From: Geodermatophilus pulveris
Lineage (GTDB): Bacteria > Actinomycetota > Actinomycetes > Mycobacteriales > Geodermatophilaceae
NCBI RefSeq assembly: GCF_900188375.1
Contig: NZ_FZOO01000001.1
Location: 434,001-498,000 of the forward strand
DNA length: 64,000 nt
Direction of reading: 5' to 3'
A model generated the notes under the pieces. The model was given only the letters and a program-made list of their open reading frames with translations. It was not told the origin of the DNA and ran no database searches. The position numbers were made by a program, and so were the translations under genes. Shown one piece after another: positions 6,505 to 11,497 of this stretch; positions within the stretch are counted from its first letter, which is position 1; each line of letters begins with the position of its first letter.

Positions 6505-6768
6505 TCAGGCGTCGGCGGCCTGGGCGAGCTGCGCCTTGACCTGGTCGATGCTCGGGTTGGTCAGGGCGCTGCCGTCGCGGAAGAGCAGCGTCGGGACCGT
6601 GCGGTTGCCCCCGTTGGCCTGCATGACCAGGTCCGCGGCCGCCTGGTCGTGCTCGATGTCGACCTCGGCGTAGTCGATGCCCTCGCGCTGCATCAGCTTC
6701 TTCAGCCGCACGCAGTACCCGCACCAGGTGGTGGTGTACATCGTCACAGCGGCGGGGGCGGCGGTCAT
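6505..6768 (-). CDS. mrx1: Mycoredoxin (glutaredoxin-like mycothiol oxidoreductase)
   Basis: 87-aa glutaredoxin-fold protein with the active-site motif WCGYC near residues 15-19, the cis-Pro element TVPT at 57-60 and a GS.L motif near the C-terminus. Mycoredoxins use mycothiol as electron donor to reduce mycothiolated proteins in actinobacteria. ATG at 6768 has a strong AGGAGG upstream. It lies divergently from the UvrD2-like helicase, as in mycobacteria. A possible SigR/SigH-type promoter (GGGAAG-N18-GTT on this strand) sits 61-87 nt upstream, which would fit control by thiol stress. Confidence 0.92.
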   Translation of the reverse strand: MTAAPAAVTMYTTTWCGYCVRLKKLMQREGIDYAEVDIEHDQAAADLVMQANGGNRTVPTLLFRDGSALTNPSIDQVKAQLAQAADA

Positions 6769-6828
6769 CGAGGCGGTCCTCCTGTCGAGGGGCGGCTCGG
6801 CACGGCGTGCCGGGCGGTCACGGTCACC

Positions 6829-6855
6829 AACGCCGCGCCCCTGGGGATGCTTCCC
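6829..6855 (-). promoter_or_regulatory. Possible SigR/SigH-type promoter for mycoredoxin
   Basis: Read on the minus strand, GGGAAG (6855-6850) and GTT (6831-6829) are separated by 18 nt. The consensus for this ECF sigma group is GGGAAT/C with a 16-19 nt gap to GTT, so one base of the -35 deviates. The position, just upstream of a thiol-redox gene, supports the call. Confidence 0.4.
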
Positions 6856-6917
6856 CCGCCCGTCGGCAGCGGCTGGGAGGATGGGCGCCGGGCCATCGAC
6901 GGGAGACGGGGAGGCCG

Positions 6918-8942
6918 ATGTCGCAGACCACCGGTGCACCCGGGGACGTCCGGGTCGCGGGGGCCGAGGCGGTGCTGGCGCAGCTGGACGACGAGCAGCG
7001 CGCGGCCGCCTCGGCGGTGTCCGGGCCGGTCTGCATCCTCGCCGGTGCGGGGACGGGGAAGACCCGCACCATCACCCACCGCATCGCCTACGCCGTCCAC
7101 ACCGGTGCCGTCGTGCCCGAGCAGGTCCTGGCCGTCACCTTCACCGCCCGCGCCGCGGGCGAGCTGCGGTCGCGGCTGGCCTCGCTCGGCGTCGGCGGCG
7201 TCCAGGCCCGCACGTTCCACGCCGCCGCCATGCGCCAGCTGCGCTACTTCGCCCCCCGGGTGCTGGGCGGCCCGATGCCGCAGCTGGTCGAGAACAAGCT
7301 CCGGCTGGTCGCCGCGGCGGCCTCCCGCGCCCGGCTGTCCACCGACCGCACCAGCCTGCGCGACCTCGCCAGCGAGATCGAGTGGGCCAAGACCACCCTC
7401 GCCACCCCCGACGACTACCCGGCGCGGGCGCGGGCTGCGGGCCGCGAGCCGCCGTTCGAGCCGGCGGCCGTGGCCCGCGTCTACGCCGGCTACGAGTCGG
7501 CCAAGCAGCGGGACGGGGCGCTGGACTTCGAGGACCTGCTGCTGGTCACCGCCTTCGCCATCGAGGAGCACCCCGACGTCGCCCGGCAGGTGCGCGGGCA
7601 GTACCGGCACTTCGTCGTCGACGAGTACCAGGACGTCAACCCGCTGCAGCAGCGCCTGCTCGACGCCTGGCTGGGCGGGCGGGCCGACGTCTGCGTGGTC
7701 GGTGACCCGAACCAGACCATCTACTCCTTCACCGGCGCCGACCCCGACCACCTGCTCGGCTTCGCCGACCGCTACCCGGACGCCGAGGTGGTCAGGCTCG
7801 AGCGCGACTACCGGTCCACCCCGCAGGTCGTCGCGCTGGCCAACAAGCTCATCGGGCAGGCGCCGCCGCGCCGCGGCCTGCCCGGCCTGCGGCTGCTGGG
7901 CCAGCGCGCCGAGGGGCCCGCGCCGCGCTTCTCCGAGCACCCCGACGAGCCCACCGAGGCGGCCGCGGTCGCCCAGGCGTGCCGCGCGCTGGTGGACGCC
8001 GGGACGCCGGCCGCGGAGATCGCCGTCCTGTTCCGGATCAACGCCCAGTCCGAGGTCTACGAGAACGCGCTGGCCGCCGTCGGCGTGCCGTACGTGCTGC
8101 GCGGGGGCGAGCGGTTCTTCGAACGGCCCGAGGTGCGCGAGGCGGTGCTGCTGCTGCGCGGCGCCGCGGCCGGCGGCAGCGACCCGGGCGCGCTGGTGCC
8201 CACGGTGCGCGACGTGCTGGCCTCCACCGGCTGGGTGGAGCACCGCCCGCCGCCCGGGGGAGCGGCCCGCGACCGCTGGCAGTCCCTGGCCGCGCTGGTC
8301 GACCTCGCCGTCGACCTGGTGGCCGAGGACCCGACGATGGACCTCGCCGGCTTCGTCGCCCACCTGGCCGCCCGCGCCGACGCGCAGCACGCCCCGACGG
8401 TGCAGGGCGTCACGCTGGCCTCGATGCACGCGGCCAAGGGCCTGGAGTGGGACGCGGTCTTCGTCGTCGGCCTGGTCGACGGCGTCCTCCCCATCGCCCA
8501 GTCGCTGTCCCGCCCGGAGGCGGTGGAGGAGGAGCGGCGGCTGCTGTACGTGGCGGTCACCCGGGCCCGCGAGCAGCTGGCGCTGTCCTGGTCGCTGGCC
8601 CGCAACCCCGGCGGGCGGCGGGCCCGGCCGCGCAGCCGCTTCCTCGAGGGGCTGGTCCCGGGGTCCACGCCGAGTGCCGCGCCGGTGCAGCGCAGGCAGA
8701 AGCGCGCCAAGGTCGTCCTCGAGGGCGAGGCCGGGGAGCTGTTCGAGCGGCTGCGCGCTTGGCGCAGCGAGACGGCCGCCTCGGCGTCGGTGCCCGCCTA
8801 CGTGGTCTTCAGCGACGCGACCCTGCAGGCCATCGCGGAGAGCCGGCCGGCGTCCCTGCGCGAGCTGGCCGGCCTGCCCGGGGTCGGGGCCCGCAAGCTG
8901 GAGCTGTACGGCGAGGACGTCCTGGCCACCGTCGGCTCCTGA
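6918..8942 (+). CDS. uvrD2: UvrD2-like superfamily 1 DNA helicase
   Basis: 674 aa. The Q-motif region (LDDEQRAAA) is followed by Walker A GAGTGKT at residues 43-49, a Walker B DEYQDVN, VGDPNQTIYSF, and the C-terminal helicase motifs including SMHAAKGLEWDAVFVVGL and LLYVAVTRAREQL. The last ~70 residues form an HRDC domain (LRELAGLPGVGARKLELYGE). In mycobacterial UvrD2 a tetracysteine element joins helicase and HRDC; here the joint (QRRQKRAKVVLEGE) has no Cys. It is a 3'-to-5' DNA translocase for repair. ATG at 6918 follows a GGGGAGG site. It is divergent from mrx1 and upstream of whiB7. Confidence 0.93.
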   Translation: MSQTTGAPGDVRVAGAEAVLAQLDDEQRAAASAVSGPVCILAGAGTGKTRTITHRIAYAVHTGAVVPEQVLAVTFTARAAGELRSRLASLGVGGVQARTFHAAAMRQLRYFAPRVLGGPMPQLVENKLRLVAAAASRARLSTDRTSLRDLASEIEWAKTTLATPDDYPARARAAGREPPFEPAAVARVYAGYESAKQRDGALDFEDLLLVTAFAIEEHPDVARQVRGQYRHFVVDEYQDVNPLQQRLLDAWLGGRADVCVVGDPNQTIYSFTGADPDHLLGFADRYPDAEVVRLERDYRSTPQVVALANKLIGQAPPRRGLPGLRLLGQRAEGPAPRFSEHPDEPTEAAAVAQACRALVDAGTPAAEIAVLFRINAQSEVYENALAAVGVPYVLRGGERFFERPEVREAVLLLRGAAAGGSDPGALVPTVRDVLASTGWVEHRPPPGGAARDRWQSLAALVDLAVDLVAEDPTMDLAGFVAHLAARADAQHAPTVQGVTLASMHAAKGLEWDAVFVVGLVDGVLPIAQSLSRPEAVEEERRLLYVAVTRAREQLALSWSLARNPGGRRARPRSRFLEGLVPGSTPSAAPVQRRQKRAKVVLEGEAGELFERLRAWRSETAASASVPAYVVFSDATLQAIAESRPASLRELAGLPGVGARKLELYGEDVLATVGS

Positions 8943-9000
8943 TCGCTCACCCCGCGTGAGGGAGGTCCGGGGTCCGCGGACCGGCGCACCCGGGCCGGTC

Positions 9001-9037
9001 AATTGCGTTGACCGCCTCGCGGGCGTCCCCCTACTGT
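9001..9037 (+). promoter_or_regulatory. whiB7 promoter with AT patch next to the -35
   Basis: TTGACC (9008-9013) and TACTGT (9032-9037) are separated by 18 nt, a good housekeeping promoter predicting a start near 9044. AATT at 9001-9004 sits 3 nt upstream of the -35 in otherwise GC-rich DNA. In mycobacteria and Streptomyces, WhiB7/WblC bound to the principal sigma factor reads an AT-rich stretch at this place with its AT-hook, so the site fits autoregulation. Confidence 0.65.
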
Positions 9038-9123
9038 CCTGATCGCGCTCGGGGACACCCGAGTGCGCCAGACCCGGGACCGGCCGCACGGCCGCGCTCC
9101 GACCCCCGGAGGAGGTGGGCGAC

Positions 9124-9414
9124 GTGACCAGCAGCACCTGCACCCTCGCCCCCGCCGGGGCCCGTGGCCCGGTGGGCGCCGCCGTGCGCCCGGCCGCCCG
9201 GTTCGCCGGGTCGCCCGTCGCCGCGCGCCTGCGCGCCCTCCCGGCCCTCACCACGGGTCCGCGCCCCGGCGCGGCCGGCACCGCGTTCGGCCGCACGCCG
9301 GCGGTCGCGGTCTTCGGCACCACCGTCGCCGAGCAGCAGATCGGCATGCGCACCACCACCGAGCACAACGGCACCACCCTCGGGATCCCCTCCTCGAGGA
9401 GACCGTCGAGCTAG
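9124..9414 (+). CDS. Upstream ORF in the whiB7 leader
   Basis: 96-codon reading frame between the whiB7 promoter and whiB7, starting at GTG 9124 with GGAGG about 10 nt upstream; an in-frame ATG at 9346 would give a 22-codon version. No protein family is recognised and the sequence is low-complexity (Ala, Gly, Thr, Arg). Its last codons run through the 5' arm of an antiterminator-like hairpin and its TAG (9412-9414) lies in the loop. That arrangement points to a cis-acting translation sensor of the type known for mycobacterial whiB7 leaders, rather than to a functional protein. Whether the long or short form is translated is not decidable here. Confidence 0.55.
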   Translation: MTSSTCTLAPAGARGPVGAAVRPAARFAGSPVAARLRALPALTTGPRPGAAGTAFGRTPAVAVFGTTVAEQQIGMRTTTEHNGTTLGIPSSRRPSS

Positions 9415-9468
9415 CCCTCGACAGGACCTCCTCGAGGCCGCGGAACCCGAACCGGGATCCGCGGCCTC
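9392..9468 (+). promoter_or_regulatory. whiB7 attenuator: antiterminator and terminator hairpins
   Basis: A terminator hairpin pairs 9434-9444 (GAGGCCGCGGA) with 9458-9468, 11 perfect base pairs. A competing hairpin pairs 9392-9400 (CCTCGAGGA) with 9429-9437, enclosing an inner stem 9405-9410/9417-9422. Bases 9434-9437 are used by both, so the two structures exclude each other. Ribosomes completing the upstream ORF would cover the 5' arm of the antiterminator and favour termination; ribosomes slowed earlier would allow read-through into whiB7. The terminator lacks a T-run, which is usual in high-GC actinobacteria. Confidence 0.65.
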
Positions 9469-9554
9469 TGTCATCTCCTCCGCGGCACCCGGCCCCGACT
9501 CCCGGTCGGCGGGTCCCCGCCGGTCGACGACGACGAGTACGAGGAGGAACGGCA

Positions 9555-9893
9555 GTGCAGTCGACGGCCGACCGCCCGACGTCCCACCGCTGGGCCGGTC
9601 CACCCCGGACCGGCGGTGGCCCCCTTCCCCGACGGCCGGTGGCCCCCGTGGCCCCGGCACCGGTCCGGCGTCCCCTGCCGTGCCGGGCCGACCCGGACCT
9701 CTGGTTCGCCGAGACCCCGGCCGCGCTGGAGGAGGCCAAGGTGCGCTGCGCGGACTGCCCGGTCCGCGACGCCTGCCTGGCCGGCGCCCTGGACCGCGGC
9801 GAGCCCTGGGGCGTCTGGGGCGGGGAGATCTTCGAGCGGGGTGCGGTCATCCCGCGCAAGCGCCCCCGCGGCCGCCCGCGCAAGGTCGCCTGA
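9555..9893 (+). CDS. whiB7: WhiB7 transcriptional regulator
   Basis: 112 aa. Four Cys ligands for a [4Fe-4S] cluster are at residues 43, 65, 68 and 74 (C...CADC...C), the G(V/I)WGG turn is at 86-90, and a C-terminal AT-hook RGRPRK is at 105-110, the feature that separates WhiB7 from other Wbl proteins. WhiB7 binds the principal sigma factor and activates intrinsic antibiotic-resistance genes, including itself. The GTG start at 9555 has GAGGAGGAAC 5 nt upstream. A ~510-nt leader with upstream ORF and attenuator precedes it. The neighbours (uvrD2 upstream, ABC1 kinase downstream on the other strand) match the mycobacterial locus. Confidence 0.94.
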   Translation: MQSTADRPTSHRWAGPPRTGGGPLPRRPVAPVAPAPVRRPLPCRADPDLWFAETPAALEEAKVRCADCPVRDACLAGALDRGEPWGVWGGEIFERGAVIPRKRPRGRPRKVA

Positions 9894-9961
9894 CCGACGA
9901 CCCCCCCTGGACCCACGGCCCCGTCCCCGGACGGGTCCACCCCCGAACGTGAGGACCCGAC

Positions 9962-10126
9962 GTGCACACCCTCGAGTACGACCTGGCCATCGACCGGTTG
10001 CGCACCCTGCGCGACGAGGCCGGCGCCGACCGGCGCGTCCGCCGGCTGCGGGCCGCCCGGCGCTGGGCGCGCCGGGCGGAGTACGCCACCCGGCGGGCGG
10101 CGCGGGCCAGCGCCGCCGTCCGCTGA
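9962..10126 (+). CDS. Small basic protein downstream of whiB7
   Basis: 54-codon ORF, too short for most gene callers. GTG at 9962 is preceded by a GAGG site about 7 nt upstream. The product is strongly helical and Arg/Ala-rich (RRVRRLRAARRWARRAEYATRRAARA), suggesting an amphipathic helix that binds nucleic acid or membrane. It lies 68 nt after whiB7 on the same strand and before a strong terminator, so it would share the whiB7 transcript. I do not recognise the family, and composition bias means it could be non-coding. Confidence 0.45.
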   Translation: MHTLEYDLAIDRLRTLRDEAGADRRVRRLRAARRWARRAEYATRRAARASAAVR

Positions 10127-10128
10127 GG

Positions 10129-10176
10129 GAGGCCCGCTGCCCCCGCTCGCACTCGCGGTGGGGGGCAGCGGGCCTC
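10129..10176. terminator. 16-bp perfect hairpin between the whiB7 unit and ABC1 kinase
   Basis: GAGGCCCGCTGCCCCC at 10129-10144 pairs perfectly with 10161-10176 around a 16-nt loop. It starts 3 nt after the small ORF stop and touches the ABC1-kinase stop codon (10175-10177), so it probably terminates both convergent units. Confidence 0.8.
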
Positions 10177-11497
10177 AGCCGGTGAAGCCCGGCAGCCACT
10201 CCTCGACCACGCCGCGGTAGTCGTCGGCGGCGTCGAGCTGGCAGAGCACCCCGATCGACCCGATCGTCACCCGGTGGATGAGCAGGTAGGCCGGCGGCAG
10301 GTTGAGCATCCGGCCCAGCCGGTTGGCCTCCGAGCGGGGGTCGGCGATGCGGGCGGCCTGCTCCTGCATCCACGCCCGCGTGAAGTGGAACCGCCGCTGC
10401 CGGATGGGTTCCAGCAGCGGCAGCAGGTACTCCAGCACCGCCTGCGCGTCGACCTGCACGCCGGGCCGGATGAACCCCTCGCTGCGCAGGTCGGCCAGCA
10501 CGTCCTCGGCCCGCCCCTCCAGCGCCCAGCGCACCAGCCGGCCGATCGGCTCCGGGTGCCCGTCGGGCAGCCGCGCCGTGGCGCCGAAGTCGATGACCCC
10601 GAACCGGCCGTCGGGGGTCAGCCGGAAGTTCCCCGGGTGCGGGTCGGCGTGCAGCAGCCCGGCCCGCTGCGGACCGGAGAAGTGCAGCACGGTGAGCATG
10701 TGCCCGGCCCGGTCGCGCTCCTCCCGGGTGCCCGAGGCGATCACCTTCGACAGCGGCGTCCCCTCGAGCCACTCGGACACGATGACCTTCGGCGCGCTGG
10801 CCACCACCCGGGGGACGACGATCTGCGGGTCGTCCGCGTAGGCGGCGGCGAAGGCCCGCTGGGCGTCGGCCTCCATGCCGTAGTCCAGCTCCTCGACCAC
10901 GCGGGCCTTCAGCTCGGTGATCAGCGGCTTGACGTCCATGCCGGGGAAGAGCACGGCGAACATCCGGGCGAAGCGCGCCAGCTGGTTGAGGTCGGACATC
11001 AGGGCGGTGGCCGCGCCCGGGTACTGGATCTTCACGGCGACGTCCCGGCCGTCCCGCCAGGTGGCGCGGTGCACCTGCCCGATGCTCGCCGCGGCCGCCG
11101 GGGTGTCGTCGAAGTGCCGGAACCGCTCCCGCCACCTGCCCCCGAGCTGCTGGGCCAGCACGGCGTGCACGGTGCGCACCGGCATCGGCGGCGCCTCGGC
11201 CTGCAGCTTCACCAGCGCGTCCCGGTAGGGCGCGGCGACCTCCTCGGGCACGGCCGCCTCGAACACCGACAGGGTCTGGCCGAGCTTCATCGCCCCGCCC
11301 TTGAGCTGACCCAGGACGGCGAACAGCTGCTCGGCGGTGCGCTGCTGGAGCTCGGCGCTCACCGCGTCGGCGTCCTGGCCGGACAGCCGCTTGCCGATGC
11401 CGAGCGTGGCCCGCCCCGCGGCACCCAGCGGCAGGGACGCGAGCCGGGCGGTCCGGGAGACCGACCCCCGCGGCATCCCCCGGTCGGGATCGCTCAC
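10175..11497 (-). CDS. ABC1/UbiB-family atypical kinase
   Basis: 440 aa with all hallmarks of the ABC1 (ADCK/UbiB) family: KLGQ (KxGQ) at residues 71-74, the Ala-rich nucleotide loop PAAAASIGQ at 133-141, VAVK at 153-156, HADPHPGN at 283-290 and DFG at 303-305. No transmembrane tail is seen, unlike UbiB of E. coli. The mycobacterial homologue next to whiB7 (Rv3197) is reported to be linked to macrolide resistance; that role here is inference from position. GTG start overlaps the end of the ThiF-like gene by 4 nt, so the two are translationally coupled. Confidence 0.93.
   Translation of the reverse strand: MSDPDRGMPRGSVSRTARLASLPLGAAGRATLGIGKRLSGQDADAVSAELQQRTAEQLFAVLGQLKGGAMKLGQTLSVFEAAVPEEVAAPYRDALVKLQAEAPPMPVRTVHAVLAQQLGGRWRERFRHFDDTPAAAASIGQVHRATWRDGRDVAVKIQYPGAATALMSDLNQLARFARMFAVLFPGMDVKPLITELKARVVEELDYGMEADAQRAFAAAYADDPQIVVPRVVASAPKVIVSEWLEGTPLSKVIASGTREERDRAGHMLTVLHFSGPQRAGLLHADPHPGNFRLTPDGRFGVIDFGATARLPDGHPEPIGRLVRWALEGRAEDVLADLRSEGFIRPGVQVDAQAVLEYLLPLLEPIRQRRFHFTRAWMQEQAARIADPRSEANRLGRMLNLPPAYLLIHRVTIGSIGVLCQLDAADDYRGVVEEWLPGFTG

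Follow-up and report, generated by a model that had tools for sequence, protein, structure and literature searches.

A putative ribosome-mediated transcription attenuator in the whiB7 leader of Geodermatophilus

The leader of whiB7 in Geodermatophilus pulveris is very probably a ribosome-mediated transcription attenuator, in which the position of a ribosome on an upstream open reading frame (uORF) would decide between an antiterminator and a terminator placed ahead of the gene. The leader lies in a window of 64,000 nucleotides (the whole stretch of DNA analyzed, to which all positions refer), and its anatomy, its conservation across 26 genomes of the genus and the order in which its hairpins fold by energy were established by computation. 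Ribosome-mediated transcription attenuation of whiB7/wblC is established in mycobacteria and Streptomyces, and the mechanism is described in published reports (PMC11550727, PMC13236596, PMC4128351, PMC10727445, PMC9618640, and PMC13393426). No description of a Geodermatophilus whiB7 leader was found in the open literature.

Anatomy and genomic setting of the leader

The leader and its gene comprise the following features, with strand in parentheses:

9008–9037 (+), promoter: −35 box TTGACC at 9008–9013, 18-nt spacer, −10 box TACTGT at 9032–9037
9108–9115 (+), Shine-Dalgarno (SD) sequence GGAGGAGG of the uORF; an SD-like sequence precedes an in-frame start in 26/26 genomes
9124–9414 (+), uORF: GTG start, 96 codons plus a TAG stop
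9380–9388 (+), outer 5′ arm of the antiterminator, inside the uORF, pairing with 9442–9450 with one A-A mismatch
9392–9401 (+), 5′ arm of the core antiterminator, inside the uORF
9403–9410 (+), 5′ side of the antiterminator inner helix
9412–9414 (+), uORF stop codon, in the antiterminator loop; same place in 26/26 genomes
9417–9425 (+), 3′ side of the antiterminator inner helix, with 9423 bulged
9428–9437 (+), 3′ arm of the core antiterminator; 9434–9437 common to the terminator
9434–9444 (+), 5′ arm of the terminator
9442–9450 (+), outer 3′ arm of the antiterminator, overlapping the upper part of the terminator 5′ side
9446–9456 (+), upper terminator stem, 9446–9449 paired with 9453–9456
9458–9468 (+), 3′ arm of the terminator
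9469–9480 (+), weak, interrupted U-tract TGTCATCTCCTC
9542–9547 (+), whiB7 Shine-Dalgarno sequence AGGAGG
9555–9893 (+), whiB7: GTG start, 112 amino acids, WhiB domain, C-terminal AT hook RGRPRK

The gene directly downstream of the leader encodes a WhiB7-type protein, with a WhiB domain (Pfam Whib, E 5.5e-14) and, read from the sequence near the C terminus, the AT hook; a search against NCBIfam with E up to 0.001 gave no match to it. Counterparts occur in all 25 other genus genomes searched, at 73–91% identity (26/26 with its own). Upstream lie a gene for a UvrD-type helicase with an HRDC domain (6807–8942, +, by profile search) and a mycoredoxin gene (6505–6732 as scanned, −), and downstream lies an ABC1 kinase gene (10175–11497, −) related to the macrolide-binding ATPase MABP-1, below the cut-off of that model. 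The resulting order of mycoredoxin, UvrD/HRDC helicase, whiB7 and MABP-1-related ABC1 kinase (6505–11497) presumably resembles the mycobacterial, M. tuberculosis whiB7 neighborhood. Directly 3′ of whiB7 there is also a 54-codon GTG open reading frame (9962–10126), rich in Arg and Ala and without a Pfam or NCBIfam match. In one genus genome (G001), a second, shorter whiB7-like match (L033; 62% identity over query residues 31–111) lies beside the main whiB7. Rfam 15 at the gathering score gave two tRNAs only for the whole window, leaving the leader without a family match.

The initial annotation had placed a promoter at 9008–9037, where both hexamers are indeed present and conserved in the genus. 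The −35 box is TTGACC in 16/26 genomes and TTGCGC or TTGCGG in the other 10, these variants having been sought only together with TACTGT-like −10 boxes; the −10 box is TACTGT in 25/26 and TACCGT in the remaining one (L013). A simple sigma-70 scan did not list this promoter. Leader transcription probably starts near 9043–9045. The sequence CAATTGCG precedes the −35 box; an AT-rich element ahead of the −35 box presumably serves WhiB7 self-activation.

Conservation was assessed at two depths. The leader layout is the same in the own genome and the 25 others of the genus. Beyond this genus set, at least 61 comparison loci were drawn from titled genome records and searched with a terminator core pattern, allowing one mismatch per arm. 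The core was found in 52 of 61 among the matches listed; by this pattern seven loci have none (L058, L081, L082, L087, L093, L095, and L096), and L076 and L097 were removed because their pattern matches lay inside coding sequence. Two of the 52, L037 (Geodermatophilus aquaeductus) and L038 (G. amargosae), have the same uORF peptides as two of the genus genomes (L027 and L031) and thus duplicate members of the genus set. The whiB7/wblC-type attenuator first suggested for this leader is upheld by these counts, together with the WhiB protein, the stop codon in the antiterminator and the terminator downstream of it.

The two hairpins and their competition

The terminator stem 9434–9444/9458–9468, sharing 9434–9437 with the antiterminator, is present as originally placed and carries an upper stem in addition. 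It folds at −32.2 kcal/mol (z −7.4; 0/200 shuffles as good), and 14 of its 15 pairs never vary in the genus, across the 24 distinct sequences left after duplicates among the 26 are collapsed. This hairpin, between the uORF and whiB7, contains the core sequence common to other whiB7 loci. The pattern GGCCGCGGA-N8-20-TCCGCGGCC, which is its own reverse complement so that every site appears on both strands, occurs at one place in the own genome, at whiB7. It is likewise confined to a single place in 21/26 genus genomes, the own one included, with one or two further places in G013, G014, G017, G020, and G021.

The tract that follows the stem is less regular. The best 8-base window after it contains 4 T in 17/26 genus leaders (including the own, where they are interrupted), 5 in 8/26 and 6 in 1/26, whereas 31/52 other leaders have 6 or more among the matches listed. 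With so weak a U-tract in this genus, the attenuator could operate with a stop near 9470 that is not a plain intrinsic terminator, either requiring a Rho/NusG helper or involving a hairpin that mainly pauses polymerase. A simple intrinsic-terminator scan, in which no terminator passed, points in the same direction as the T counts. The stem, however, is nearly invariant and very stable, and poor U-tracts are frequent among the terminators of high-GC actinobacteria; overall, a dependence on a helper or a pause appears rather unlikely, albeit with some standing.

Upstream of the terminator, the antiterminator-like stem reported at 9392–9400/9429–9437, with a nested stem, proved to be one pair longer: 9392–9401 pairs with 9428–9437 over 10 bp and encloses 9403–9410/9417–9425, with the stop codon in the loop. 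The location of the stop (9412–9414) inside the antiterminator, also part of the initial annotation, recurs in 26/26 genomes. This core was correctly recognized, while a second arm was missed. In folds from 9360 or 9375 to 9451–9452, TCGGGATCC (9380–9388) pairs with GGAACCCGA (9442–9450), and the extended antiterminator reaches −42.6 kcal/mol, compared to −29.4 kcal/mol for the core (explicit structures; for the core fold, z −3.7 and 0/200 shuffles as good). The outer arm is similar to the 3′ side of the terminator itself, and its seven pairs are formed in 97.0% of cells over 24 distinct genus sequences, versus at most 54.8% for slid versions. On the basis of these predicted folds, it is proposed that the antiterminator has two parts.

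The competing antiterminator overlaps the terminator 5′ arm, and the two hairpins had been described as mutually exclusive. This appears to be the case only with the outer arm 9380–9388; with the 4-base overlap alone, they come close to coexisting, as the explicit state with a truncated antiterminator and full terminator has −52.4 and that with the full core antiterminator and truncated terminator −50.0 to −50.1. In the minimum-energy fold of 9378–9470 (−55.0), the full terminator is formed and six outer antiterminator pairs are retained alongside it. When the RNA was grown base by base from 9360, as a ladder of minimum-energy equilibrium folds rather than kinetics and with RNA before 9360 excluded, the terminator 5′ arm stayed in the antiterminator until 9463, began moving at 9464 and was fully moved by 9469. 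Folding of the leader, one of the checks initially suggested, thus recovers both hairpins, with the antiterminator first and the terminator taking over after 9463 in the lowest-energy folds. The RNA 3′ of a ribosome on the stop codon (9428–9470) folds as the terminator alone. Without a ribosome the terminator also wins in folds of the finished leader, so that the choice between the hairpins, and with it the ON state, must be kinetic.

The holding of the terminator arm by upstream RNA was compared with shuffled sequence, using the upstream RNA together with the terminator 5′ arm and 60 shuffles per leader. Native upstream RNA was more stable than shuffled, with z below −2, in 24/26 genus leaders and in 47/52 others among the matches listed; the five others that missed this value come from Mycobacterium (three loci) and Herbidospora (two loci), namely L041, L045, L056, L079, and L083. 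In the genus, 9–12 of 16 terminator-arm bases are held, versus a shuffled mean of 7.8–9.2, and the number held is no better than shuffled in L032 within the genus (9 versus 8.9) and in L053, L066, L074, and L092 outside it.

Covariation in both stems, also initially suggested as a check, is weak within the genus, the stems being almost free of variation. Like the near-invariant terminator, the outer antiterminator arm has 6 of 7 pairs that never vary, and it lacks covariation among the 24 distinct sequences. For the core antiterminator, the covariation score was reached by 3/500 shuffles, the percentage paired by 18/500 and the number of pairs with changes in both partners by 197/500; one pair (columns 14–56) is lost in 14/24 distinct sequences. 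Between families, the inner helix differs yet still pairs: GTCGAG/CTCGAC in the genus, CTGAGC/GCTCAG in L019, L039, and L043, and mostly GGTCTG/CAGACC in Micromonosporaceae. Support for the predicted attenuator comes from conservation, folding order and the differing inner helices between families.

Part of the antiterminator may have a further partner. Its 3′ arm CCTCCTCG (9427–9434) is unchanged in 26/26 genus genomes even though its 5′ partner varies, and CGAGGAGG (9540–9547), over the whiB7 Shine-Dalgarno sequence, is its complement; both CCTCCTCGAGGCCGCGG and CGAGGAGGA occur at the 9427–9434 and 9540–9547 places in 24/26 genomes. A second lock in the genus is conceivable from this complementarity, though improbable: were the terminator to form and polymerase to leak through, the freed arm 9427–9434 would mask the whiB7 ribosome site, and a single element would control both termination and translation. 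Another candidate, in which TCTCCTCC, directly behind the terminator, would pair with the whiB7 Shine-Dalgarno sequence, was rejected, being possible in only part of the genus. Between the terminator and whiB7 (window 9490–9530) there is also a conserved inverted repeat, CGGTCGGCGGG...CCCGCCGGYCG, with similar sequence in L037–L039, L042, and L043. A conserved second switch at about 9490–9530 was rejected, since the predicted folds differ between genomes despite the conserved repeat, which may act as an RNA hairpin or an operator.

Start, length and constraint of the uORF

Two open reading frames ending at 9414, of 96 or 22 codons, had been offered initially, of which the 96-codon frame from GTG 9124 was retained. 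An SD-preceded start (GTG in 17 genomes, ATG in 9) lies in frame with the stop in 26/26, these starts having been sought in the frame of the stop only and taken as one same start because their SD context is alike. The stop, inside the antiterminator, is TAG in 19 genomes, TAA in 5 and TGA in 2. The reading-frame check in relatives is accordingly positive: the uORFs have 20 different lengths (85–132 codons) with the start always in frame with the stop, indicating that length changes by insertion or deletion preserved the reading frame. At such G+C, an open frame by itself is little evidence, and in many genomes the frame is open well upstream of the start. The 22-codon alternative (ATG 9346) was discarded, as 1/26 genomes has an ATG at exactly that distance from the stop and 3/26 have any in-frame ATG 15–31 codons before it. 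A start at GTG 9115 (99 codons), inside the Shine-Dalgarno sequence and with a counterpart listed in 10/26 genomes, is less likely than 9124.

The uORF was initially considered unusually long, a view that the comparison loci overturn. Some SD-started uORF occurs in 52/52 terminator-bearing loci among the matches listed. With a stricter Shine-Dalgarno definition, 50/52 (among the matches listed) have a uORF of 37–124 codons, median 87, ending 17–37 nt before the core, under limits (37–140 codons, 17–37 nt) that were set after seeing the uORFs of these loci and whose lower bound of 37 is the filter's own. At random anchors, a matching SD-started uORF was found in 15/1958.

The beginning of the uORF peptide (about ISTMWTLAPAG) and its end (about TLGIHSxGRPxS) are recognizable in most of the genus, as they would be if the uORF encoded a functional peptide, or a motif for specific ribosome arrest, with its ends conserved through peptide constraint. 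The middle, by contrast, is highly variable in both sequence and length, the uORFs of other families share length and not sequence, and the peptide has no Pfam match. Variability by codon position argues in the same direction. In the last 14 codon columns (13 counted) it is 0.142, 0.092, and 0.030 at positions 1, 2, and 3, compared to 0.368, 0.267, and 0.142 just before them and 0.180, 0.235, and 0.165 in codons 2–26. The third-position drop is thus steepest at the 3′ end, where residues do change, which is the opposite of peptide constraint and suggests that this end of the uORF is constrained at the RNA level; as third positions are lowest elsewhere in the uORF too, G+C bias explains part of the signal. 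A functional peptide consequently appears highly improbable. An amino-acid-specific sensor was also sought in the composition of the uORF, and nothing definite emerged: relative to two window proteins, Thr, Gly, and Pro are abundant in the 26 genus uORFs, and the share of Ala is no higher (14.9% versus 15.6%), standing at 18.8% in the uORF of the window itself.

A reading without any switch, in which the hairpins either always terminate transcription of the upstream helicase gene or are passive structure at the 5′ end of the mRNA, would agree with the terminator form being the overall energy minimum. It is nevertheless extremely improbable, given that a promoter and a frame-keeping uORF precede the hairpin in 26/26 genomes and that in other families, too, upstream RNA pairs with the terminator arm.

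Related leaders and proposed order of events

Reports on mycobacterial whiB7 leaders (M. marinum, M. bovis, M. abscessus, and M. smegmatis) likewise describe a Shine-Dalgarno sequence and uORF, a conserved stem-loop terminator at the uORF 3′ end and attenuation before whiB7 (PMC4128351, PMC10727445, and PMC13393426). Among the matches listed, seven Mycobacterium/Mycolicibacterium loci share the layout of the terminator core, GGCCACGGA...TCCGTGGCC, and have shorter uORFs than here (49–65 codons). Most of their folds (L045 excepted) pair a CCGTG-type antiterminator arm with CCACGG in the terminator, whereas in Geodermatophilus CCTCGAGG pairs with CCTCGAGG. The latter core is shared by Micromonosporaceae and Frankiales-type leaders (within L050–L094), which also have the same terminator core, a stop inside the inner hairpin and an inner helix that is mostly GGTCTG/CAGACC. 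The extending arm is CCGCGG in several Micromonosporaceae folds and, in Geodermatophilus and some Frankiales records (L090 and L091), of a CGGG type against ACCCG; U-tracts are mostly better in Micromonosporaceae than in Geodermatophilus. Streptomyces is represented by a single locus (L096), a distant Wbl relative that lacks the terminator core. Likeness to the Streptomyces coelicolor wblC leader is drawn from its published description, in which uORF translation favors the terminator and its interruption favors the antiterminator (PMC11550727).

From the leader anatomy and the published whiB7/wblC work, the following order of events is proposed for the attenuator. Transcription would begin near 9044, and a ribosome would start the 96-codon uORF at 9124. 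Upon reaching the stop at 9412–9414, the ribosome, given the footprint size assumed for termination, would cover the antiterminator core; once 9458–9468 is made, the terminator would form and RNA polymerase would stop near 9470, before whiB7. Conversely, a ribosome that stalled earlier (due to an antibiotic or amino acid shortage) or never started would leave 9380–9401 free. The two-part antiterminator would then form first and hold the terminator 5′ arm, allowing polymerase to read on into whiB7, and the WhiB7 made would activate its own promoter. Stalling as the signal, premature transcript ends and self-activation by WhiB7 are ascribed to this leader by analogy with its relatives.

The Geodermatophilus whiB7 leader is very probably an ordinary, well-conserved whiB7/wblC attenuator and not a new class of regulation. 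These results extend the whiB7/wblC attenuator to Geodermatophilus, with its anatomy at base resolution, and the comparison reveals that long uORFs are common in whiB7 leaders. The poorly conserved middle of the uORF would fit a sensor of ribosome trouble anywhere along about 80 codons, as opposed to one stall site.
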